A program made the translations under genes and the position numbers. This document shows positions 5,290 to 56,803 of a stretch of 64,000 bases of DNA, one piece after another. The DNA lies in assembly GCA_029263455.1 (NCBI GenBank), contig JAJCXM010000014.1, positions 124,001-188,000 on the forward strand, written 5' to 3'. The DNA is from Holophagae bacterium (GTDB lineage: Bacteria > Acidobacteriota > Holophagae > Acanthopleuribacterales > Acanthopleuribacteraceae). The stretch's first letter is position 1; each line of letters opens with the position of its first letter. Below the pieces are notes generated by a model that was given only the letters and a program-made list of their open reading frames with translations, searched no databases and had not been told where the DNA came from.

Positions 5290-5552
5290 TCATCTTGCCT
5301 GTGATGTCAAAAAGTCCGAATCATCACTCCTGTTTAATATCTTGATTAATTAGATTGAACGACAGCATCGCATTCGAGGAATTGAGTCTACGTATGCATC
5401 ACTAATTTGCAGGATAACGGTTAACAGCCCAACCTCCGACACGGATGTCGGACTCACACTCTTCATGTTTAGGCATCGGAGATGCCAGACTCAAATCAGA
5501 GAAAGCATGCCTTCACCTTCGATTTGCCCTTATAATTATCAAAGAGGTTGAA

Positions 5553-5936
5553 ATGCTCCGTCTTTGCACCACACTTCTTTTGGCCCTCTTTATGTTTGCG
5601 AATTCAGCGATGATCGTCGACACGGCCTATTTCTGCCTAATAGACAATCAAGTTAGAAGCGACTGCTGCAGCGAATTCGAAAATAGCCAAAACGACGATT
5701 GCGATCAACAGAATCTAAGCAACTGTTGCGAAGTGCTTCTTACGCAAACAGAATATCCCCCAGCAAGAGCAGAAACCGACCAGCCCGAGCTGCAACAAAT
5801 CCCGGTCGTTGCTCAATTGGCACTGTTGACAAAGCAACCGTATCTACCTCAAGCGCACGCCTCGTTCCCGACAGTCATGGCACCACACGGCACAGGTCCG
5901 CCGCTCTTCATACGTAACTGTAGCTTCCTAATTTAA
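5553..5936 (+). CDS. small secreted Cys-rich protein at the head of the metal-efflux operon
   Basis: I place the start at the ATG 5553, preceded by AAGAGG, because a signal peptide (LRLCTTLLLALFMFANSA) follows it directly; the longer frame from 5445 adds residues without any feature. The mature protein of about 105 residues has YFC, SDCC, NDDC and NCC cysteines and ends GPPLFIRNCSFLI. This resembles the small HYC/CC/PP-type proteins often encoded just before CusB/CusA-type pumps in other bacteria. A periplasmic metal-binding role is inferred from cysteines and position. Confidence 0.65.
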   Translation: MLRLCTTLLLALFMFANSAMIVDTAYFCLIDNQVRSDCCSEFENSQNDDCDQQNLSNCCEVLLTQTEYPPARAETDQPELQQIPVVAQLALLTKQPYLPQAHASFPTVMAPHGTGPPLFIRNCSFLI

Positions 5937-6103
5937 AGCGTCGACACGAGTCCTGATCGGCACCGCTGTGCCCTGCTCTGGATATCTTCGCCCGTGCCTA
6001 AGTCACGCGTCCAAATGGGCGTGCTGATTCTAATCCGCCAACAGGGTGACGACGATAAAAACCAATAATTCACACATCTACACCTATCCATAAGGAGAAA
6101 AAA

Positions 6104-6493
6104 GTGACTAAGAATTTAATTACAGGCGTTCTGCTTTTAGCCATCGGAGCGATGGCAGGTTACGCCTACATCCAGTTCAATAAACAGTCATCTCACGGCA
6201 ATCACAATGTCGAATTGACCCATGACAAGATGCATGGCGTTGAATTGAACGGCGTTGAATTTTGTGTCGAACATCAAATTGCCGAAAGTGAGTGTCCATG
6301 GTGCGATCGAAGTCTGATATCAAAGCTCGGCCACTGCGCCGAACATGACGTGCCCGAAGCTTTATGTAGTCAGTGTAAACCCGCCCTTATCGCTGGCTTC
6401 AAGGCAGAAAACGATTGGTGCGCTGAGCATCGCTTGCCGGAATCCCAATGCGCCATCTGCCTAGCTCAGGCTGACCACGACTCAAGCGAATAA
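6104..6493 (+). CDS. membrane-anchored protein with three Cys/His metal-binding repeats
   Basis: A 129-residue protein starting at GTG with AAGGAG upstream. An N-terminal transmembrane anchor (residues 5-25) is followed by a His-rich linker (SSHGNHN, THDKMH) and three repeats of C-x2-H-x3-E-x2-C-x2-C: FCVEHQIAESECPWC, HCAEHDVPEALCSQC and WCAEHRLPESQCAIC. The N-terminal part of the next gene product has the same repeats, and the last one is nearly identical. It is therefore a free-standing duplicate of the adaptor's N-terminal domain. The residues suit Zn, Cu or similar soft metals. It lies 23 bases before the adaptor gene. Function is inferred from context only. Confidence 0.8.
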   Translation: MTKNLITGVLLLAIGAMAGYAYIQFNKQSSHGNHNVELTHDKMHGVELNGVEFCVEHQIAESECPWCDRSLISKLGHCAEHDVPEALCSQCKPALIAGFKAENDWCAEHRLPESQCAICLAQADHDSSE

Positions 6494-6516
6494 TAATCTC
6501 AAAAAGGAAACCGTTC

Positions 6517-8025
6517 ATGAATAAGCTAATTAAGTTCATCGTCCCCTGCTTACTGCTCTTCTGCGGAGCGACGTTGGTGGTGGTGGGTGACAAATACGGT
6601 TGGTTCACAGGCGGTACCTCAGAAGCTCAAGTTTGTCCCCACGGATTGACCACCTCAACATGCGCGTTCTGCGATCCGACCCTAATTGAATCCTTAGGTT
6701 TCTGCGGTGCGCACGGTGTGCCCGAAGCTTTTTGTACGCGTTGTAACGAAAAACTCATCGTCGCATTCCAGAGCATTAATGACTGGTGTGCAGAGCACCG
6801 TCTACCCGAATCCCAATGTACGATCTGCAACCCTGAACTTTCGAACGTCACCTTAGCCACAACGCCAGCTGACGCAATCAAAATAGTCAGTAACCACTTT
6901 CTTCGTAACCAACAAGCACCTTCGCTAACCTGCACAAACGAGAGCCTTCTTGTTCAGTTCTTAAGCCCACAAACTGTCAAAAAGGCCGGTCTCGAATATG
7001 AAGCGGCAATCGAAAGGGCAGTCACAGAAACCATTACCTGCAATGCAGAAGTCACTTATAACCAAAACCAGTTTGCCCATATTTCAGCAAGAACCCCTGG
7101 CATCATAAATCAGGTCCATAGAGATTTAGGCGATGCAGTTCAAACCGGCGATCTTCTGGTCACCATCGATTCATCCGAACTGGCCATGGCAAAGGCCAAT
7201 CTCCTTCAAGCTCAGGCGCACGTGAACCTGTGGCAAAAGAATGTCGCCCGCGAGCAGTATCTACTAAGAAAAAATGCTTCTACCGAGCGCGAAGTTTTGG
7301 AAGCCGAGACCGAACTGACAGAACACCAGATTCAAGAATCCCAAACATCTCAGCGATTAACGAGCTTGGGCTTAGACCACGCCGCTGTCGAACTGGTCTT
7401 GGCCAATAACGACACCTCTTCGTTACTCGCGATCAGAGCCCCTTTTGACGGTATCATCGTCGAACGTGACGCCGTTGTCGGTGAAGTGATCGATTCAGCG
7501 CAACCCCTCTTAGCGATCGCCGACACCTCGCACATGTGGGCGAAACTGGATCTAGCCGAGACGGACATTGCCAAGGTGAAACTTGGCCAAAGCGTCAACG
7601 TCCGCTTTGGCAGACAAACAGGCGAAAATTTCCAAGGGAAAACGACCTGGATCAGTTCCCAGCTCGATCCCAAGTCCAGAACTGTCCAGGCTCGCATCGA
7701 GATACCCAACCCAGACAATCTGCTCAGATCGGGCATGTTCGGCAAAGCGCACATCACCGTCAAAGACAACAACGCTTCTTTGACCATCCCCAAGAGCGCC
7801 GTGCAATGGGAAGGCTGCTGTAATGTCGTTTTCGTCAGGCGTAGCGATTACGTTTTTGAGCCGCGAAAGATAAGCATCACCTACGAAGCAGACACTTATT
7901 ACGCTGTCACTGGCAACATCCAAGCCAACGAAACCGTGGTCACAACCGGCAGTTTCCTGCTCAAAACCGAAATTCTCAAGGGCAGTATTGGTGCTGGTTG
8001 CTGTGAAGTGGAACCAGGAAGATAA
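6517..8025 (+). CDS. RND heavy-metal efflux periplasmic adaptor with N-terminal Cys/His domain
   Basis: A 502-residue CzcB/CusB-type membrane fusion protein. Residues about 7-25 form a membrane anchor. Residues 38-110 hold the repeats VCPHGLTTSTCAFC, FCGAHGVPEAFCTRC and WCAEHRLPESQCTIC. Residues 140-500 are the normal adaptor: lipoyl-like halves (ISARTPGIINQVHRDLGDAV and IRAPFDGIIVERDAVVGEVI) around a coiled hairpin, then beta-barrel and membrane-proximal domains with the GCC pairs (WEGCCNVVFV, GAGCCEVEPG) typical of heavy-metal members. It bridges the inner-membrane pump and an outer-membrane channel. The stop codon abuts the ATG of the pump gene. It lacks the methionine-rich N-terminus of E. 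coli CusB; the Cys/His domain may replace it. Confidence 0.92.
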   Translation: MNKLIKFIVPCLLLFCGATLVVVGDKYGWFTGGTSEAQVCPHGLTTSTCAFCDPTLIESLGFCGAHGVPEAFCTRCNEKLIVAFQSINDWCAEHRLPESQCTICNPELSNVTLATTPADAIKIVSNHFLRNQQAPSLTCTNESLLVQFLSPQTVKKAGLEYEAAIERAVTETITCNAEVTYNQNQFAHISARTPGIINQVHRDLGDAVQTGDLLVTIDSSELAMAKANLLQAQAHVNLWQKNVAREQYLLRKNASTEREVLEAETELTEHQIQESQTSQRLTSLGLDHAAVELVLANNDTSSLLAIRAPFDGIIVERDAVVGEVIDSAQPLLAIADTSHMWAKLDLAETDIAKVKLGQSVNVRFGRQTGENFQGKTTWISSQLDPKSRTVQARIEIPNPDNLLRSGMFGKAHITVKDNNASLTIPKSAVQWEGCCNVVFVRRSDYVFEPRKISITYEADTYYAVTGNIQANETVVTTGSFLLKTEILKGSIGAGCCEVEPGR

Positions 8026-19898: not shown

Positions 19899-22800
19899 AT
19901 GTTATTGCTATGCGTGAGTCTACTGTATCAATCGGAACCATCCCTGTCGGTTGATCAAGCCTATCACTATCAACGTATTACGATGGAAGACGGGCTAGCT
20001 TCTGACACCGTCATTGGCATAACGCAAGATGATTATGGCTACATCTGGTTGGCAACTGGCGACGGACTAAACCGCTTTGACGGCGACAAAATGCTGACCA
20101 TGCGCCATATCGCGAACCGCAATGACTCCCTGTCTGGCAATGAAGTCATGCACCTATTCTGTGACCGTGAAGGCCGGATTTGGGCTGGCACTTTTGATCA
20201 CGGATTGAATGAAATTGATCCCAACTCGTTAGTTGTCAAACGCTACGAACATCGGGATGCCGATCCCACCTCACTAAGCCACAACCGCGTCACTGCTATT
20301 GTCCAAGACGACGATGGTTTTGTGTGGGTTGGAACCGCTGACGGCTTGAATCGCCTAGACCCGCGCACTGGCAGCATTAAGATATTCCAACACGCCAATA
20401 ACAAAAACAGCCTCAGCCATTCCGCCATCCAGTCACTCTTTGTCGATGACAAGGGCGTGCTTTGGGTAGCGACGCTGGATGGATTCAATCGCTTTGACCG
20501 GGTAACGTCCAGCTTTGAAAGATTCTATGTGGAGAAACCGCTTGGCGAGAATCTGGTTTGTAGCATCAAATCAGCGGGTAGCAATGATCTATGGATCGCA
20601 GAAAACTATGGCGGCGTAAGCCGTTTCGATACGAAGAAAAGAGTCTTTGAAAGTCGTTTGGACGAGCTCGCGGGTGTGCCAATTTACACGATGCACAGCG
20701 ATCGACAGGGTCAACTCTGGATCGGAACCGCTCAGCAAGGTATTTATTGTCGCGCTCCTGACGGCAACGTGACGCAACCAATTTACGATTTAAGTGATGC
20801 GAACAGTCTGGCAATTAAGCCGATCTCGTCGGTTTTCGAAGATGCGGAATCTGTCTTCTGGTTTGGGACATTTGACGCTGGCGTATACCGATTCAATCCA
20901 AGAACGCTCGATTTTCCCCAATGGCGCATCAATGAGGATGGGCGCGATATCGGGGCAGCGATTACGGCCATCACTTCAGGTCAAACAGGCGAAGTTTGGA
21001 TAGGTATCAGGGACGCCGGCGTCATCCAAATCGATAAGCACCGTCAGGTGACGCGCGACTGGGAATTTGATGCTCAGGTTAATTGCCTCTTGGCGGACAG
21101 GTCGCAGCGCTTATGGGTAGGACTAAGGAAACAGGGTGTGGTTCAAATTGAATTAGAAACCGGTGCGCAAACCCACTTTTTGGCCGACACAAACGGCCTT
21201 TGGTCCCTGAGCCACGAACACCCAACGGTCATGATTGAGGATCGTAGCGGAAACATCTGCATAGGAACACGTGGCGGACTCAATATCATCGAGCCTGAGG
21301 TCGTTAGCCAGTACACCGTCGAATCCCACGGAAGCAAAGGCATGGTTGACGACCGAGTTTTTGCGTTGTCAGCGGACAATCGCGGCGGAATATGGGTGGG
21401 CGTTTCATTTGGCACCCTACTCTACCTAAACGAGAGTCGAGAAGAGTTTGCGCCTTTCACCTTAAGCGAAAGGTCCGCACTTGACCCATTCGATCTTCGC
21501 GTTGCTGCCATCAGTTCATCACGAGCAGGTAATTTGTGGGTTGGCGTGCACGGGGAAGGCGTCAAGAGCTTCGACCTGGACAGCAGTCAAGTCGATGACA
21601 TTGAGTCCGGTCAAACACAGATCAGTGGTATCTATGAAGATGGCCAACAACGGCTTTGGGTTTATGGTGAAAAAGGCCTCTCCTGCATCAATCTTCTGAG
21701 CCGTGACATCCGGGTTTACGACCAAGAAGACGGCTTGATTTGGAAGTCTTTCTTGGACCGGAGCTTTAGCAGGCGATCCCAAGGCGAACTCGTATTAGGT
21801 GGTACCGGCGGATATTTTAGTTTCAATCCAGACAAAATTCAGCCAGACGCCAATCCCCCAAGGGTCTACTTCACAGATGTGGAAGTCTTTGGTCAGCCCC
21901 TCCACTCCAGCTATAGCTCAATAACACACAACATTGGATACAAACAGAAGGCAAAACTCACCCATAAACAAAACACATTAACCCTACGATACGCCGGTCT
22001 ACAATTTGCCAGTCCCAGCAAAATATCCTTTCGACACCGTTTGGAACCTTTGGACAAGCATTGGCAATACGGCGAAAGCGGTCAGAGGAGTTTGAATTAT
22101 TACAATCTGCCGCCCGGGCAATACGTTTTGGCACTTGAGGCAGCGAACGCGGATGCCGTTTGGTCACCGCAACGCCAATTCCCCTTCGAAATAGCCAATC
22201 CGCCCTGGCGTACTTGGTGGGCATTCATGCTTTATGCGCTCATTTCAATGGCAGCCATTGCTAGTTGGACCCGTATGCGAACCAGGATGCTGCGCAAACG
22301 CGCTGGCGAATTGGAAAGTGAGGTTAGGCTTCGAACGCAGAGTGTTCGTGAGCAAAAAGACACCATTGAACGTTTGTTGAAGCGTAAGGACATTCTGTTT
22401 GCTAATGTGTCCCACGAATTTCGTACACCTTTAACGTTGATCATGGGACCCATAACTCGCATGCTGGCGGCCGAGTCGCCATTCAAAGATCAGCTAAACA
22501 TGATCCGCAGGAATGCCACTCGTTTGCTGCGTATGGTGGATCAGTTATTAGACTTGGCAAGATTAGGAGAACATGAGCCATCTAATTCGACACCTCTGAA
22601 CGTGACTTCTCATCTTAATTTCATGGTGCAATCGTTCCTGCCAGTTGTGGAGGCCCAAGGTCAAACTCTAACTCAAGATGTCCACCCGCATTTGAGTCTG
22701 ATGATGCCGCAGGATGTATTCGAAAAGATTGTCTCGAATCTCTTATCCAACGCAGTGAAATATGCAGGTCGTGGCGCGTCAATTCACGTTCACGCCTTCG

Positions 22801-23927
22801 AACTCAATGATCGTGTCATGCTTGAAATCAGTGATAACGGTCCTGGCATCGAAGCTGAGTATCAACCGTTGGTTTTTGAACGATTTTACCGGTTGCCTGA
22901 TTCGTCAAGTTCGGAAGGCGCAGGCATTGGGCTGTCATTAGCAAAGGAGCTTGTTGAAGCCCACAACGGTTCAATTGAGCTCATCTCATCTCGTGGTCAT
23001 GGCGTTCTTTTTCGCATTGGCCTACCGGCAAACCATGACGCCATATCTTCTACCTTGGAACCTAGCGAACACCATCCAACTCTAGAGCTGGAACTGCAGA
23101 CATTAACCCAGCCCCAAGAACAGAATACTCACGCTGAGCGGGATCAAACCGAACAGAGACCGACCGTGCTGGTGATCGAAGATCACATGGACATGCGGAC
23201 CTATATCGTTGAAGAGTTAAGCGAAATCGCCGATTGCTCCTGTGCCAGTGACGGTGTATCTGGGTTAGCAGAAGCACAGAATCAGGTGCCCGATCTAATC
23301 GTCTGTGACGTCATGATGCCAGGCATGGATGGTTTCCAACTCAATGAAGCATTGAAATCGAATGAGCTGACAAGCCACATCCCCGTCATTTTGCTCACAG
23401 CAAGAGGAGACCAGGAAAGCCGCCTGCGTGGTCTAAAAGGAAGAGCCGACGCGTACCTCACAAAACCATTTGACGCCACCGAGTTACGCGTTCAAGTTGA
23501 GAATCTCTTGACCATTCGTGAATTGCTAAAGAAGCGTTTTGGAAGAATGTTGTTGGCGACCGAAGATCAACCCAACATTCAACCAGATGAGCTTAATGCC
23601 GTGGACGAGCAGTTTCTTAGCCGGTTCACAGCTGTATTGGATAAAAACTATTCAAACTCTGAATTCTCGTTGTCGGAAATCGTCGCTTTAATGCATACAA
23701 GTGAACGCCCGCTTCAACGAAAACTGAAAGCGCTGACCGATCACACCCCGTCACAATACCTGCGTCTTTTCCGCCTGCAGAAAGCGCGTTCGCTCTTGCA
23801 ACAAGGGCAAACAGCATCGCAGGTTGCCTTTGCGGTCGGCTTCTCGTCTCACGCGTATTTCACCACCTGCTTCAAAGCTCAGTTTGGGGTCGTGCCTTCA
23901 CATTACGTAGTCCCAAATCCCGACTAA
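19899..23927 (+). CDS. hybrid two-component system: propeller sensor kinase-REC-AraC regulator
   Basis: A 1342-residue one-protein signalling system. After a signal anchor, residues ~20-690 are Reg_prop propeller repeats (DDYGYIWLATGDGLNRFD and many relatives) and a Y_Y_Y domain, all periplasmic. A membrane helix lies near 772. The cytoplasmic part has the phospho-acceptor His in FANVSHEFRTPLT (~838), an ATPase with NLLSNAVKYAG, SDNGPGIEAE and GAGIGLSLAKE, a receiver with Asp in VCDVMMPGMDG (~1130), and a C-terminal AraC-type DNA-binding domain (SLSEIVALMHTSERPLQRK, AVGFSSHAYF). In Bacteroidetes such proteins sense glycans. It lies just before the peptide cassette and may control it through the direct repeats at 23991-24022. 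Confidence 0.95.
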   Translation: MLLLCVSLLYQSEPSLSVDQAYHYQRITMEDGLASDTVIGITQDDYGYIWLATGDGLNRFDGDKMLTMRHIANRNDSLSGNEVMHLFCDREGRIWAGTFDHGLNEIDPNSLVVKRYEHRDADPTSLSHNRVTAIVQDDDGFVWVGTADGLNRLDPRTGSIKIFQHANNKNSLSHSAIQSLFVDDKGVLWVATLDGFNRFDRVTSSFERFYVEKPLGENLVCSIKSAGSNDLWIAENYGGVSRFDTKKRVFESRLDELAGVPIYTMHSDRQGQLWIGTAQQGIYCRAPDGNVTQPIYDLSDANSLAIKPISSVFEDAESVFWFGTFDAGVYRFNPRTLDFPQWRINEDGRDIGAAITAITSGQTGEVWIGIRDAGVIQIDKHRQVTRDWEFDAQVNCLLADRSQRLWVGLRKQGVVQIELETGAQTHFLADTNGLWSLSHEHPTVMIEDRSGNICIGTRGGLNIIEPEVVSQYTVESHGSKGMVDDRVFALSADNRGGIWVGVSFGTLLYLNESREEFAPFTLSERSALDPFDLRVAAISSSRAGNLWVGVHGEGVKSFDLDSSQVDDIESGQTQISGIYEDGQQRLWVYGEKGLSCINLLSRDIRVYDQEDGLIWKSFLDRSFSRRSQGELVLGGTGGYFSFNPDKIQPDANPPRVYFTDVEVFGQPLHSSYSSITHNIGYKQKAKLTHKQNTLTLRYAGLQFASPSKISFRHRLEPLDKHWQYGESGQRSLNYYNLPPGQYVLALEAANADAVWSPQRQFPFEIANPPWRTWWAFMLYALISMAAIASWTRMRTRMLRKRAGELESEVRLRTQSVREQKDTIERLLKRKDILFANVSHEFRTPLTLIMGPITRMLAAESPFKDQLNMIRRNATRLLRMVDQLLDLARLGEHEPSNSTPLNVTSHLNFMVQSFLPVVEAQGQTLTQDVHPHLSLMMPQDVFEKIVSNLLSNAVKYAGRGASIHVHAFELNDRVMLEISDNGPGIEAEYQPLVFERFYRLPDSSSSEGAGIGLSLAKELVEAHNGSIELISSRGHGVLFRIGLPANHDAISSTLEPSEHHPTLELELQTLTQPQEQNTHAERDQTEQRPTVLVIEDHMDMRTYIVEELSEIADCSCASDGVSGLAEAQNQVPDLIVCDVMMPGMDGFQLNEALKSNELTSHIPVILLTARGDQESRLRGLKGRADAYLTKPFDATELRVQVENLLTIRELLKKRFGRMLLATEDQPNIQPDELNAVDEQFLSRFTAVLDKNYSNSEFSLSEIVALMHTSERPLQRKLKALTDHTPSQYLRLFRLQKARSLLQQGQTASQVAFAVGFSSHAYFTTCFKAQFGVVPSHYVVPNPD

Positions 23928-24022: not shown

Positions 24023-24123
24023 TAACGCTCCGCTAAGGGACTCCGCTAGCCTGTGGTTGTTTTGACGAGCCGAGATCCTGCTTTGATGTTCGATGGCAGA
24101 TGATCGGCTGGAAAGGATTGCCC

Positions 24124-24651
24124 GTGAAATGGATCGTGACCCTTGTAATGACCATGGCGTTGTTAACAGGATGGTGGTTCGTCAGTCGACCTGATTCGCC
24201 GCTAATTGACTATAGTGTTCGCGAGTTTGATGTTGGCTTGTTGCTGGGTTTGCAGTCGTTCGGCGACTTTGATCCAGACCTCGAATTCACCCACGATCTT
24301 TCGGTCATTTTCTACTTTTCGTCATTGAGCTGTTCAACCTGTACGACAAGAGAGCTCAGGAATTTGGCGGATTGGTATGAGAAGTATCGAGATCGAGTAG
24401 ATTTCTTTTTGGTTGTTCAAGGCCAGGACGATGTTTATTTGCACAATTTGAAACGACTAGGAGACGTGAAATATCCCATCTTGCTGGAAGCGGAGCAAGG
24501 GGACATGGGATTCGCTCATACCTGTGTCATGTTGATGTCAAAAAACGAAGCGTCCGTGCTTGCCACTTACTATCCGCAGGTCGACCCCAAAACCGCTGAT
24601 GACATTCTCTTCTTGGAGACATACTTGGTCGGTCAAATCAAAGGAACGTGA
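24124..24651 (+). CDS. membrane-anchored thioredoxin-like protein (CSTC), first gene of peptide cassette
   Basis: I prefer the GTG at 24124 (GAAAGGA six bases upstream); an ATG at 24100 is in frame. About 175 residues: an N-terminal anchor (MKWIVTLVMTMALLTGWWFV) and a periplasmic domain with VIFYFSSLSCSTCTTRELRN. This is a thioredoxin-fold beta strand and helix with the redox pair Cys-Ser-Thr-Cys. The later part (RVDFFLVVQGQDD, YPILLEAE) fits the fold. It could oxidise, reduce or isomerise the cysteines of the small peptides encoded next. It ends 62 bases before the first peptide gene. Confidence 0.78.
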   Translation: MKWIVTLVMTMALLTGWWFVSRPDSPLIDYSVREFDVGLLLGLQSFGDFDPDLEFTHDLSVIFYFSSLSCSTCTTRELRNLADWYEKYRDRVDFFLVVQGQDDVYLHNLKRLGDVKYPILLEAEQGDMGFAHTCVMLMSKNEASVLATYYPQVDPKTADDILFLETYLVGQIKGT

Positions 24652-24713
24652 ACGGATTGACTTGTCCCAATGGGTCCATTCATGTCCCAAAAAAATCTAT
24701 GGAGTTAGAACCA

Positions 24714-24944
24714 ATGAAAAAATTAATTTTGTCTCTGTTGTTCGCTGTTGCTGTGCTGGGTGGCACCGCAACATTTGTGATGGCTGGTAACGGCTATTAC
24801 TCAATTGTCGAGTCATGCTGGGGTCCAATTCGCCATGCAGACGGATCTATCAGCTACACACCAGGTGGACGTTACACAATGGCGTGTTTGCCAAACGGCA
24901 ACCAGTCTTGTGCCCAAGAACAATGTCTTGGTGACATTCGCTGA
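24714..24944 (+). CDS. small secreted four-Cys peptide 1 of the cassette
   Basis: A 76-residue precursor. ATG 24714 has GGAG about ten bases upstream; the longer frame from 24648 adds 22 residues with no feature. Residues 1-24 are a clear signal peptide (MKKLILSLLFAVAVLGG..VMA). The mature part of about 52 residues has cysteines in ESCWG, MACLPNG, QSC and EQC and is rich in Gly, Tyr and Ser. It shares CLPxG followed by another Cys with the second peptide at 26329. The layout (tiny signal-peptide protein, then a propeller) recalls NVEALA peptides of Bacteroidetes, but the sequence differs. Confidence 0.75.
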   Translation: MKKLILSLLFAVAVLGGTATFVMAGNGYYSIVESCWGPIRHADGSISYTPGGRYTMACLPNGNQSCAQEQCLGDIR

Positions 24945-24951
24945 TTCAGAC

Positions 24952-24978
24952 GTTTGGGAGGCCATTGGTCTCCCAAAC
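24952..24978 (+). promoter_or_regulatory. intercistronic hairpin between peptide 1 and propeller gene
   Basis: GTTTGGGAG (24952-24960) pairs perfectly with CTCCCAAAC (24970-24978), and the stem can extend inward to a three-base loop. It lies 8 bases after the peptide stop and 20 before the GTG of the next gene. With no T-run it is probably a partial terminator or a 3'-end stabiliser that lets peptide mRNA exceed the downstream message. Confidence 0.65.
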
Positions 24979-24998
24979 ACCATGACTTGGAGGATTTT

Positions 24999-26261
24999 GT
25001 GGTTAAAACGCAAGTGATTAGATGGGCCCGCCATAATGCCCTCTACCTGGTGATAGTGGGTTCGAGTCTTGTGACAGCAGCCTTGATGTGGCGATCAAAT
25101 TCGAAAGCACTGGACCATCGCACTATGATCGTCGCCAAAGCATCGGCCAATTTAGTGCAACAGGTGCCTGAAACGGAATTCCTGAAACCAACGATTACGC
25201 AGGTTTCTGACTTAATCACTCTGTCGGACATCGTGCTGTTTGAGCAAACGCCGGAATCGACGTTTGGTGAAATAACGGATTTGGTTTTTTGGAATCATCA
25301 ATGGTTTATTTTGGATAAGATGACCCGCAGCATCTTTCGCTTTGATGTAAACGGCAAATTCATAGCGCGTATTTCCACAGAGGACTGGATCGAGAACGGT
25401 CTCACCCATCCCAGACGGTTACGCGTCTGTTTTGATGGGCTGCTGGGTGTCTGCGACGCCTATTTAGGGAAAATATTTCTCTTCGATCAAGATGGTGTGT
25501 TAAATCGTGTTTCAGCGACAAAGGTCGGCGGATTTGCATTTTTTGCTCGTCACAATTTCATGTGGAATCAAGAGGACCGCCTTGTTATTCCAAGCTTTTC
25601 CTCCCGCGTACCAGAGTCACCGCTGCACGTGTTGATTAACAGTAAAGATCCAATTTCTAGAGAGTACCTGGGCTTTGGAAATCGTTGCCAACCCATCGAG
25701 CGGGCCGTTCTGATAGGAGCGCCCATCAAGCCGAATACAGCATTTGAAGAAATTGACGGCTTCTATTGGAGCGGCTCACCTTACACAACCTATGTCGACG
25801 TCTACAATGCAGAGGGTCAACAAGTGGCCCGTTTAGGTGAAACGGTAGAACGGGATCGAGAAAAACTCATACACCCTGAGGACTACGGGCATTTGCCTGA
25901 GATCAAGAATCAAGTCGATTATGTGACTTCATTGCTGACCAACAAAGCGGGAAACGAACGTATTTCTCGAATCGGTGATTTCGTCTTCGTGCAAATGGGC
26001 CATGTCTTTGATGTCTATCGGGTAGATCGATCCCCCGTCGCTGTTAATTTGCCTGCAACAGGTATTTGGATGGACTACGCCATCGATGACTATCTGGTCA
26101 TGGTCATCCCTTCTGGCTTAGATCTCGACCTCATCGAGAATCATGACGTCAAAGCTGCATTGATAGACGATGGTTACTCACCTGAGGGCAACCCTGCGGT
26201 TGTTTTGTTTGAGCTGGACAGCACAGCTACAGGCCAAGTTCTTGCCGAACTGTCATTGTAA
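24999..26261 (+). CDS. membrane-anchored six-bladed beta-propeller-like protein
   Basis: The GTG 24999 is the likely start because GGAGGA precedes it by four bases; the longer frame from TTG 24954 would start inside the hairpin. About 420 residues: an anchor (ALYLVIVGSSLVTAALMW, residues ~15-33) and a propeller-like domain with repeated blade motifs (ITDLVFWNHQWFILDKMTRS, FRFDVNGKFIARIS, IFLFDQDGVL, YVDVYNAEGQQVARLGE). It resembles the 6-bladed beta-propeller (BF3164/NHL-like) proteins that accompany small secreted peptides in Bacteroidetes. No catalytic residues are apparent; binding or presenting the peptide is a guess. Confidence 0.75.
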   Translation: MVKTQVIRWARHNALYLVIVGSSLVTAALMWRSNSKALDHRTMIVAKASANLVQQVPETEFLKPTITQVSDLITLSDIVLFEQTPESTFGEITDLVFWNHQWFILDKMTRSIFRFDVNGKFIARISTEDWIENGLTHPRRLRVCFDGLLGVCDAYLGKIFLFDQDGVLNRVSATKVGGFAFFARHNFMWNQEDRLVIPSFSSRVPESPLHVLINSKDPISREYLGFGNRCQPIERAVLIGAPIKPNTAFEEIDGFYWSGSPYTTYVDVYNAEGQQVARLGETVERDREKLIHPEDYGHLPEIKNQVDYVTSLLTNKAGNERISRIGDFVFVQMGHVFDVYRVDRSPVAVNLPATGIWMDYAIDDYLVMVIPSGLDLDLIENHDVKAALIDDGYSPEGNPAVVLFELDSTATGQVLAELSL

Positions 26262-26328
26262 CAAATGCAAACTTAAGGTATAAAACCCGGATCAAGCGTC
26301 CGGAGCAACACGAATTAGGAGGAACTAG

Positions 26329-26508
26329 ATGCCAATGAAGAAGAGGTTTTTTTATCTGTTGGGACTATGTGCGTTGATGCTTATGACCATGGGACAAGCG
26401 TCTGCTCGTGGATACGGCGCTCTCAATGCAGGTCGCATGTTAGATGGCCCAAACGGAAACTCCCAATATTGTCTACCGCCGGGCTTCCTTTGCCATGAAG
26501 TTCCCTGA
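26329..26508 (+). CDS. small secreted two-Cys peptide 2 of the cassette
   Basis: A 59-residue precursor with a textbook ribosome site (AGGAGG, six bases before ATG). Residues 1-26 are a signal peptide (KKRFFYLLGLCALMLMTM..ASA). The predicted mature peptide of 33 residues is Gly/Asn rich (RGYGALNAGRMLDGPNGNSQ) and ends with YCLPPGFLCHEVP, so it has exactly two cysteines seven apart. CLPxG-x-x-C matches CLPNG-x3-C of peptide 1. A small CCGGA/TCCGG stem (26287-26303) lies upstream. It sits 49 bases before the second propeller-like gene, repeating the peptide-then-propeller order. Confidence 0.72.
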   Translation: MPMKKRFFYLLGLCALMLMTMGQASARGYGALNAGRMLDGPNGNSQYCLPPGFLCHEVP

Positions 26509-26556
26509 CGAAAAGAATGCTTTCCGAAAAGCGAACATGGCTGGAACGACGCGTTG

Positions 26557-27528
26557 ATGCTGACCCTTTTTTTGACGCTTACCCTTGCTATTCAAACGCC
26601 CGCAGAAGCGGTCTTCAGCTCCGCTGAATTTCCAGCCATTTTCAACCCGATCTGGGGCGATTGGCATTTTCGCAACGGTACCTGGATCGGCATCGTATTC
26701 GGCGACTCCAGCCAAGCGCAAGGCATCTCGGTTTTTGTCTGGGAAGAGGGACAACCCCTCAGGAAACACGCCAGCGCGGACGCCCGAGAAGGATTGTTCA
26801 TGCTTCGCAATACCGACGTTTCGCCCTCAGGCCAAAAGCTCCTGGTGCAAGGTTACGGAAACTCGGTTGCCTACTTATGTTCACTCGTTGATCAGAAAGG
26901 GGTATTCAAACGAAAAATGGTGGTTGACCATGGAGATGACTTCATTTTTTGGGATGAAAAAACAGTGCTCAGCGGCTCCAAATTCCCGTCTATTCGCTTC
27001 GCCGTCCACGGTCGAAAGAAGATTGCTGAAATTGAACGATTGAAAGCACAGTTGCCGACAGGCATTGACCATCCCGTTGAACCCTATTACTACAAAAACA
27101 AAATGCACTTCAAACGTCACGAAAATAAGTTTGCATTCGCTTTTGGCTTGGTGCCCGAAGTCTATATTTGGGATGGAGTCAAACTTACCAGCCATGAAGT
27201 TGGCTTCGCTGATTATGAGGTGCCCACAAAAAAGTACCCGAAAGATTCTCGCAAGTATCGCAAATGGTTCTCAAGCTTCCACCATTTGCAGCAAATCGCT
27301 TGGTTCAAAGGTGATTTGTACGGTTTGTTTCGAAAAGGCTACGACGAATACGGAGTCTGGCTAAGGTTTCACGATCAAGGCAGTTTGAAAGTCTGGGACA
27401 ATGACGCCAATTCAATTCGTATTTTTGCGATGAACGGCGAAGAAATGATTCTTGGTAAGCGGTCAGATAAAGCTGAAGGAGACGTGACATGGCGGCTGTG
27501 GCGAGCATCCTCTTTGCCCTCGTTATAA
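26557..27528 (+). CDS. secreted propeller-like protein, partner of peptide 2
   Basis: About 323 residues, starting at ATG 26557 (a TTG at 26554 precedes it) without a strong ribosome site. A signal peptide (MLTLFLTLTLAIQTPAEA) is followed by a beta-rich domain with blade-like strands (GIVFGDSSQAQGISVFVWEE, VYIWDGVKL, WLRFHDQGSLKVWD). It is diverged from the first propeller but of similar type and role in gene order. The last 40 bases overlap the next gene in another frame. No catalytic motif was seen. Confidence 0.65.
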   Translation: MLTLFLTLTLAIQTPAEAVFSSAEFPAIFNPIWGDWHFRNGTWIGIVFGDSSQAQGISVFVWEEGQPLRKHASADAREGLFMLRNTDVSPSGQKLLVQGYGNSVAYLCSLVDQKGVFKRKMVVDHGDDFIFWDEKTVLSGSKFPSIRFAVHGRKKIAEIERLKAQLPTGIDHPVEPYYYKNKMHFKRHENKFAFAFGLVPEVYIWDGVKLTSHEVGFADYEVPTKKYPKDSRKYRKWFSSFHHLQQIAWFKGDLYGLFRKGYDEYGVWLRFHDQGSLKVWDNDANSIRIFAMNGEEMILGKRSDKAEGDVTWRLWRASSLPSL

Positions 27529-27890
27529 AGCAAAGTCAGATTGAACCCTATATCGAGTGGATATTTTCGGCTGATGCATGCATGTCCTGTTCTGAGGCGC
27601 AGCTGGAACTGATGACATCCTATTTTGTTGAAGGAGATCTAATCCTGATCAGCAATCCAACTGGTGACTCAAAAAGGGCCAATTTACTTATGGCGGAGAT
27701 AATGAAAAGGTTCCCAGACGTTGAGGTCACTAGTGTGGCGAACCGCATTAAATCGATCGCGACCGGATGGCTTTGGACCGATCCAGTCTCACATGAGGAA
27801 GTGATGTACCACAGCCGGCAGTTCTCATATTCACGAGCACGCGCGTCAGCCCTGCTTTTCTGCCTACGCCAACCAAATCCAAAGCGTTAG
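27489..27890 (+). CDS. thioredoxin-like CxxC protein, last gene of cassette
   Basis: A 133-residue protein. ATG 27489 has AAGGAG ten bases upstream and lies inside the end of the propeller gene, so translation is coupled. A short hydrophobic N-terminus (AAVASILFALVI) precedes EWIFSADACMSCSEAQLELM, a thioredoxin-like strand followed by Cys-Met-Ser-Cys. It is a shortened relative in design of the first gene of the cassette, so two CxxC proteins bracket two Cys peptides. Confidence 0.65.
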   Translation: MAAVASILFALVIKQSQIEPYIEWIFSADACMSCSEAQLELMTSYFVEGDLILISNPTGDSKRANLLMAEIMKRFPDVEVTSVANRIKSIATGWLWTDPVSHEEVMYHSRQFSYSRARASALLFCLRQPNPKR

Positions 27891-55732: not shown

Positions 55733-56803
55733 TTGAATCTTATCTTGATCTTATTCGCGCTCATTTTTGGCGATAATGCTTCAATCAAAACAAGCATGGC
55801 GTACGAGCCGATTCCGGAGTCGAATGAGCTCTTTCTGCAACTCCCCTTTTCTATTGCCTTTAGCTCAAACTCAGACCTTTTTGTATTAGATACGCTGGCC
55901 AAGAAAGTCCATGTCTGGAGCAGCCTAGGCAAGTACCTGCAAAGCTTTGGCAGAATTGGCATGGGTCCTGGCGAGATGGCTCGGCCCGAGACCTTGGATA
56001 TACTCAATGATCGCTTGTGGTTGTATGACCATTCCGGTCGGCGACTGACGCAGTTCAGTCTTCAAGGTGAACCGCTACAGACCATTTCTTCGCAAGTACG
56101 CGCCAATCGGTTCGCCGCCCTGCGTGACGATCTTTTTGTGGCCGGCTACAAGAAACACCATGACAAAGAACGCACACAAGCTTCGTTTGAACTCATTGAT
56201 GGAAATGGGCGAGTGGTTAAGATCCTCAAGCAGTTCGACCATGGCGGTTACTTAAAACGCGATCAGGGCAAAACGCGAATCAAGGCGTTTGGTCCCGAGA
56301 TGGACATTCAGAGGATCAGCGCGAAACGCTGGCTATTCGGGTTCTCCCAAGAGAATGTCCTCTATGAAATCGACGACTCGGGCGAGATCGTTGCTAGTCA
56401 CGTCATAGAAATGTTCACCGAAAAACCAAGTGACTTTGACAAGGATCTCATTAAGACGTTGAGTTTTCCCAATAGCGCTGGCACACGAACCGGGTTCAGC
56501 GATTGGCGTCACCTCGAGTTATCCTTTGAACACGATAAAGCCTATTACACGCACTTCACCAAGCCGACAGAGAACAAACTCGTCTTTGCCTTGACCCCGC
56601 TGGGCGGCTTTGGAACCGTTGCTGGCTTCCATCGCGCGACCTATTTCGTGAGTGACCTAAAGACCAAGAAGATGGTGGCGCGTGGCTATTACGAGTTGCC
56701 TGAAGACTCACTCGTCTTCTACAAAGCAGGGCGCGTAATTGTCTTCGAGGTTACAGACGATGGCTCATATGCCATCAAATCCATCACCCTAAAGGGCTCG
56801 TGA
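55733..56803 (+). CDS. secreted six-bladed beta-propeller (NHL-like) protein
   Basis: A 356-residue protein starting at TTG, with GGAG about nine bases upstream. A short signal-type N-terminus (NLILILFALIFG) is followed by propeller blades: LFVLDTLAKKVHVWSSLGKY, SFGRIGMGPGEMARPETLDI, LWLYDHSGRRLTQFSLQGEP. This is the 6-bladed propeller type also found in the cassette at 24999, but here no peptide gene or thioredoxin accompanies it. Ligand unknown. Confidence 0.85.
   Translation: MNLILILFALIFGDNASIKTSMAYEPIPESNELFLQLPFSIAFSSNSDLFVLDTLAKKVHVWSSLGKYLQSFGRIGMGPGEMARPETLDILNDRLWLYDHSGRRLTQFSLQGEPLQTISSQVRANRFAALRDDLFVAGYKKHHDKERTQASFELIDGNGRVVKILKQFDHGGYLKRDQGKTRIKAFGPEMDIQRISAKRWLFGFSQENVLYEIDDSGEIVASHVIEMFTEKPSDFDKDLIKTLSFPNSAGTRTGFSDWRHLELSFEHDKAYYTHFTKPTENKLVFALTPLGGFGTVAGFHRATYFVSDLKTKKMVARGYYELPEDSLVFYKAGRVIVFEVTDDGSYAIKSITLKGS

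Follow-up and report, generated by a model that had tools for sequence, protein, structure and literature searches.

An exported cysteine peptide, a DUF5128 propeller and a thioredoxin-like protein form a conserved gene unit in Acidobacteriota

INTRODUCTION

Why should genes for small exported cysteine peptides, propellers and thioredoxin-like proteins lie together, and do they make up one system? The question is raised by a cassette at positions 24124-27890 of the window, the 64,000-nucleotide stretch of a 6.2-Mb Holophagae genome analyzed here. The original prediction described two cysteine peptides, two propellers and two thioredoxin-like proteins, compared them to the NVEALA/propeller loci of Bacteroidetes, and proposed that the thiol proteins act on disulfides of peptides bound by the propellers, with secreted signals, bacteriocin-like peptides or surface tethers as candidate products. 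The NVEALA peptides and six-bladed propellers of gut Bacteroidota have no known role. Our search of the open-access literature found no paper that describes the cassette or mentions NVEALA, and nothing relevant on DUF5128, PF14055, PF17170, BF3164, DUF4934 or the combination of parts. The families of the parts are known already, and the pairing of NVEALA peptides with propellers is visible in public annotation; the thioredoxin partner and the non-NVEALA form in Acidobacteriota appear to be new.

RESULTS

The six frames lie on one strand in the order Trx1, pep1, prop1, pep2, prop2 and Trx2, matching the frames first listed, including the proteins with CSTC and CMSC motifs. The genes are separated by 62, 54, 67 and 48 nt, and prop2 and Trx2 overlap by 40 nt; Trx1, pep1 and prop1 stand head to tail within 24124-26261. 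Terminator-like sites in the cassette do not exceed chance (4 found versus 4.9 expected), and none stands out. Codon use favors the claimed frame for the cassette genes, with the exceptions of Trx2, which ties with one reverse frame, and pep2, which is marginal.

Trx1 (24124-24651, forward strand) encodes a thioredoxin-like protein, exported or membrane anchored, with a single CXXC (CSTC); its start is the GTG at 24124, with an alternative ATG at 24100. Among 14 aligned sequences the CXXC is invariant, its two cysteines and Met1 being the sole invariant columns. A structure predicted from three sequences shows thioredoxin topology (pLDDT, 65.6), with best structural matches of the ResA/TlpA type (Foldseek E value, 3e-6; VIA Z score, about 11), and we regard a ResA/TlpA-like thioredoxin fold as the predicted one. 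Trx1 shares with the extracytoplasmic ResA/TlpA thioredoxins this predicted fold, the single CXXC and an extracytoplasmic anchor, but it falls below the Pfam cut-offs for Redoxin (E value, 0.01) and AhpC-TSA (E value, 0.09), and its companions are a propeller and a peptide. The cis-proline opposite the active site, which the alignment shows at loci L016, L140 and L147, is not apparent for Trx1, whose model is too weak to confirm or dismiss it.

The neighboring pep1 (24714-24944, forward strand) encodes a peptide of 76 aa that bears a signal peptide, read by eye, and has a mature part of about 52 aa. It contains four cysteines, with a C-terminal C-x7-C-x4-C, and the claimed frame is the one that codon use supports best. 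When pep1 was aligned with eight peptides of other loci, the four cysteines were invariant across the nine relatives, and the Acidobacteriota members varied everywhere else. The CLPxG motif, put forward as a shared mark of such peptides, was therefore ruled out, conservation being limited to the cysteine positions; what the peptides have in common is four cysteines, usually spaced C-x7-C-x4/5-C. That spacing was derived post hoc from seven peptides, for which the shuffle probabilities multiply to about 2e-13, and holds also for three found later (L163, L201 and L220), while the first peptide of L162 reads C-x6-C-x4-C and those of L207 and L213 are off the pattern.

The third member of the unit, prop1 (24999-26261, forward strand), encodes a DUF5128 six-bladed propeller with an N-terminal membrane anchor. 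Its start is a GTG, in an ORF open from the TTG at 24954. It exceeds the curated Pfam cut-off for DUF5128 (PF17170; 25.1 versus 22.9 bits), and relatives score higher (50.7 bits at L011 and 72.6 bits at L013). DUF5128 was the only family returned by the Pfam scan, which gave no amine dehydrogenase match. Internal repeats are visible in the family profile, and the family alignment takes in lipoprotein relatives. A further DUF5128-like propeller is encoded at 55733-56803 of the window, with no cysteine peptide or thioredoxin detected alongside.

Searches made separately with prop1 and Trx1 found relatives whose places adjoin one another, Trx1 relatives lying next to propellers in 7 genomes. The order is peptide-propeller-thioredoxin at L012, L013, L014 and L016, thioredoxin-propeller-peptide at L011 and propeller-thioredoxin-peptide at L020, with exported cysteine peptides in each case; propeller and thioredoxin genes of the triads often overlap by 4 nt. 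A thioredoxin profile of 14 sequences with rows from both phyla (A11), searched against 93 genomes of the class, matched 11 places in 8 of them, of which nine were already profile rows or known and the one in G006 was new. All 11 adjoin a propeller, and 10 adjoin a small exported cysteine peptide; the eleventh, in G002, is cut by a contig end. The genes for peptide, propeller and thioredoxin are thus co-conserved, usually in the order peptide-propeller-thioredoxin, as the conserved unit that had been predicted. Since the trio is conserved as a unit, the concern that the peptide frames might not be conserved falls away for pep1.

The peptides themselves led to the same kind of locus. Searching with a profile of the peptides (A7) turned up two weak matches (E values, 0.086 and 0.8), both of which lie inside complete triads (L162 and L163); at L162 a single thioredoxin stands amid two peptides and two propellers. 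In the wider phylum, A11 found triads in G337 (L201), G150 (L207) and G096 (L213), as well as thioredoxin-propeller pairs with no peptide detected in G395, G397 and G262. Many other matches there are, by eye, ordinary redoxins, such as those next to CcdA-like genes in G061, G073 and G085. A scan of a contig set of 84,980 species with narrow patterns from the thioredoxin alignment returned only one Holophagae MAG and Sulfidibacter corallicola, a cultured species that has the triad at L011 and whose strain M133 (G003) belongs to the same family as the genome holding the window. Exported cysteine peptides without a detected thioredoxin adjoin propellers at L021 (1259-1501), L076 (5303-5551) and L100 (6748-6966), where the regular cysteine spacing suggests helical hairpins, and likewise at L017 and L067.

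Could unrelated exported genes simply have come to lie together? Of 12 prop1-type propellers, 7 have an exported cysteine peptide no more than 250 nt away, whereas the same holds for only 2 of 213 control ORFs (p by Fisher's test, about 5e-9; loci of related genomes are non-independent samples). This enrichment, the triads reached blindly and the occurrence in two phyla make chance neighborhood a very improbable account, disfavored for the first half of the cassette; what it has on its side is that pep2, prop2 and Trx2 do not recur together elsewhere as a conserved unit. Membership of every DUF5128 propeller in the system was ruled out, as a rule-based count placed a qualifying ORF within 250 nt of 4 of 72 other DUF5128-like propellers, and reading of those loci showed that some of these neighbors are HiPIP-like Tat proteins (L110 and L115) rather than peptides.

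In the second half, pep2 (26329-26508, forward strand) encodes a 59-aa peptide behind an AGGAGG ribosome site, with a signal peptide read by eye and a mature part of about 33 aa that holds two cysteines (C-x6-C). Our searches gave it no family match and no convincing relatives. The 323-aa product of prop2 (26557-27528, forward strand) is exported and stands at the propeller position. It has no significant family match, none to PF17170 (profile-profile probability, 0.4%) and no detectable blade repeats; it scores weakly against a large propeller profile (13 bits), and its single-sequence structure model is unusable (pLDDT, 37). One clear relative (G004:C352; E value, 3e-33) has neither peptide nor thioredoxin alongside. 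Trx2 (27489-27890, forward strand) encodes a 133-aa protein with CMSC that aligns to the thioredoxin profile in its CXXC region alone (2 to 3 bits), and searches found no convincing relatives. The prediction of two propellers and two thioredoxins thus stands for prop1 and Trx1, while the folds of prop2 and Trx2 are unproven. The best argument for prop2 as a propeller and Trx2 as a thioredoxin is their placement: pep2-prop2-Trx2 follows the commonest order elsewhere, and Trx2 matches the thioredoxins of other triads in position and overlap. The window holds one typical unit (Trx1, pep1 and prop1), and pep2, prop2 and Trx2 are probably a second unit that has diverged strongly.

On the same strand, ending 196 nt upstream of Trx1, a hybrid two-component regulator occupies 19899-23927 of the window, with Reg_prop, Y_Y_Y, histidine kinase, receiver and AraC-type HTH domains in a Pfam scan. 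It could control the cassette. The congener G001 has no clear orthologue of the regulator, and the module is absent there. A phage origin was dropped, as the cassette has no PHROG match and the viral contigs searched hold no relatives of the thioredoxin, and a role in antiphage defense was dropped after PADLOC gave no match.

To compare the cassette to Bacteroidota, that phylum was sampled through plasmid-collection records, several of which resemble chromosome pieces. At L140 and L147 of Phocaeicola, an NVEALA or NVEALA-like peptide, a DUF5128-type propeller and a thioredoxin-like protein stand in a row, and the thioredoxin groups of Acidobacteriota and Phocaeicola align with each other profile to profile (P, 3e-6; probability, 88%). 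The peptides are a separate matter. Neither pep1 nor pep2 matches the NVEALA model PF14055, no NVEALA match over the cut-off was found in any of 149 Acidobacteriota genomes, and the peptide groups of the two phyla gave no profile-profile match (2.5%); membership of the peptides in NVEALA was ruled out by family model and profile comparison. NVEALA (PF14055) and propeller (PF17170) loci thus likewise hold an exported cysteine peptide beside a DUF5128 propeller and, in Phocaeicola, a related thioredoxin, but the window peptides differ by lacking the motif, by another cysteine pattern and by the absence of a large array. The proposed link to these loci is real, and our best reading of the cassette is a variant of the uncharacterized NVEALA/propeller loci of Bacteroidota, with the thioredoxin as third partner.

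An array of NVEALA-propeller units, together with Trx+DUF1573 genes, is found in Phocaeicola massiliensis (L148; OY726023.1). Over 13093-34961 at least nine NVEALA-type peptides alternate with propeller-like lipoproteins, and Trx+DUF1573 and signal-peptidase-like genes lie near the array. The peptides have near-constant leaders and very variable cysteine-containing ends, and most are followed by their own propeller.

DISCUSSION

Because the trio recurs both among other Acidobacteriota and among gut Bacteroidota, it looks like a real machine that makes or handles disulfide peptides. As judged by sequence, the products of all three genes have signals for export or anchoring, and the place where they would be expected to meet is therefore outside the cytoplasm. 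The peptide would be a Sec substrate processed by signal peptidase, and the anchored propeller would then bind it. While the propeller holds the peptide, the anchored thioredoxin would make, break or reshuffle its disulfides, yielding a mature cross-linked peptide that would then be displayed or released. We put the chances at about even that the thioredoxin makes or edits disulfides of a propeller-held peptide. Co-conservation, the blind triad finds, the Phocaeicola trio, the tie of cysteine spacing to the thioredoxin and the precedent of NHLRC2 count in favor; cysteine peptides without a thioredoxin, thioredoxin-propeller pairs without a peptide, the congener without the module and the kinship of the loci count against. 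As for the cysteine spacing, the pattern is present in 10 of 13 peptides with an adjoining thioredoxin versus 1 of 7 others (p, 0.017), that one lying in a thioredoxin operon, an association that is suggestive only, because the samples are related and small.

In the structure of NHLRC2, the cysteine motif of a thioredoxin-like domain lies in a cleft alongside a six-bladed propeller, and this cleft has been proposed as a partner site (PMC6107167). NHLRC2 and SOQ1 hold the same two folds side by side (thioredoxin-like and six-bladed NHL propeller) but fused in one chain, whereas the cassette has separate genes, CSTC instead of CCINC or CC(I/V)NC, and a co-encoded cysteine peptide; sequence similarity is remote only (E value, about 0.1). 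In the cassette, where thioredoxin and propeller are separate neighbors, the co-encoded peptide may be such a partner. The fusion of both folds in eukaryotic proteins also suits an account in which the substrate of the thioredoxin is the propeller or some other protein of the envelope, with the peptide as a mere passenger, as do the thioredoxin-propeller pairs in G395, G397, G262 and G180, where no peptide was detected. Considering that a cysteine peptide accompanies 10 of the 11 thioredoxin places in the class and that the cysteine pattern goes with the thioredoxin, we think this account improbable.

Variable peptides, each with its own propeller, raise another possibility, namely, that peptide and propeller are a polymorphic interbacterial pair, either toxin and immunity or ligand and receptor, with the thioredoxin merely supplying disulfides. 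The P. massiliensis array fits such a pair, as do the Acidobacteriota peptides, which vary except at the cysteines. Reading of the neighboring ORFs, however, recognized no dedicated exporter, peptidase or modifying enzyme by the cassette (the profile scan covered the upstream regulator only), and this, with the negative PADLOC result, leaves a polymorphic pair unlikely.

The mau cluster for methylamine dehydrogenase also combines a propeller, a small disulfide-rich exported chain and a thioredoxin-like maturation factor, MauD. These same kinds of parts could mean that propeller and peptide make up an enzyme, with the peptide as its small, disulfide-rich subunit and the thioredoxin as its maturation factor, and a DoxX/MauE-like ORF, identified by eye, follows the triad at L207. 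The cassette propeller is of DUF5128 type, with no amine dehydrogenase match, no MauE-like gene was seen among the neighboring ORFs read by eye, and the peptides have only their cysteines in common, unlike an enzyme subunit; on balance, this account seems to us quite doubtful.

For loci of no known role, the finding that a related thioredoxin is conserved with peptide and propeller in two phyla offers a concrete biochemical guess, namely, disulfide work on a held peptide. It also provides small, single-copy versions that are good for testing, and for eukaryotic NHLRC2 and SOQ1 it hints at what a thioredoxin-propeller pair may act on. More broadly, and tentatively, since we rate it as somewhat less than an even prospect, an undescribed envelope system may extend across Acidobacteriota and Bacteroidota in which each six-bladed propeller lipoprotein is paired with a disulfide peptide of its own, fast evolving and exported by Sec, and with a thioredoxin dedicated to folding or loading that peptide. 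This would amount to a new class of secreted bacterial peptides with maturation machinery.

Several loci also hold features of separate interest. Rhodanese-like and DoxX/MauE-like ORFs (by eye) lie directly downstream of the thioredoxin-peptide-propeller triad of G150 (L207, 6298-7169). At L019 (G005:C67, 10778-15418), a long run of regular short direct repeats, whose frames repeat SFYPRNDSKAVAT, looks like a CRISPR array. A Tat-signal HiPIP-like gene lies just upstream of a DUF5128-like propeller in both congeners (G000, L110 at 6137-7728; G001, L115 at 5537-7084), and this is another conserved propeller pairing.
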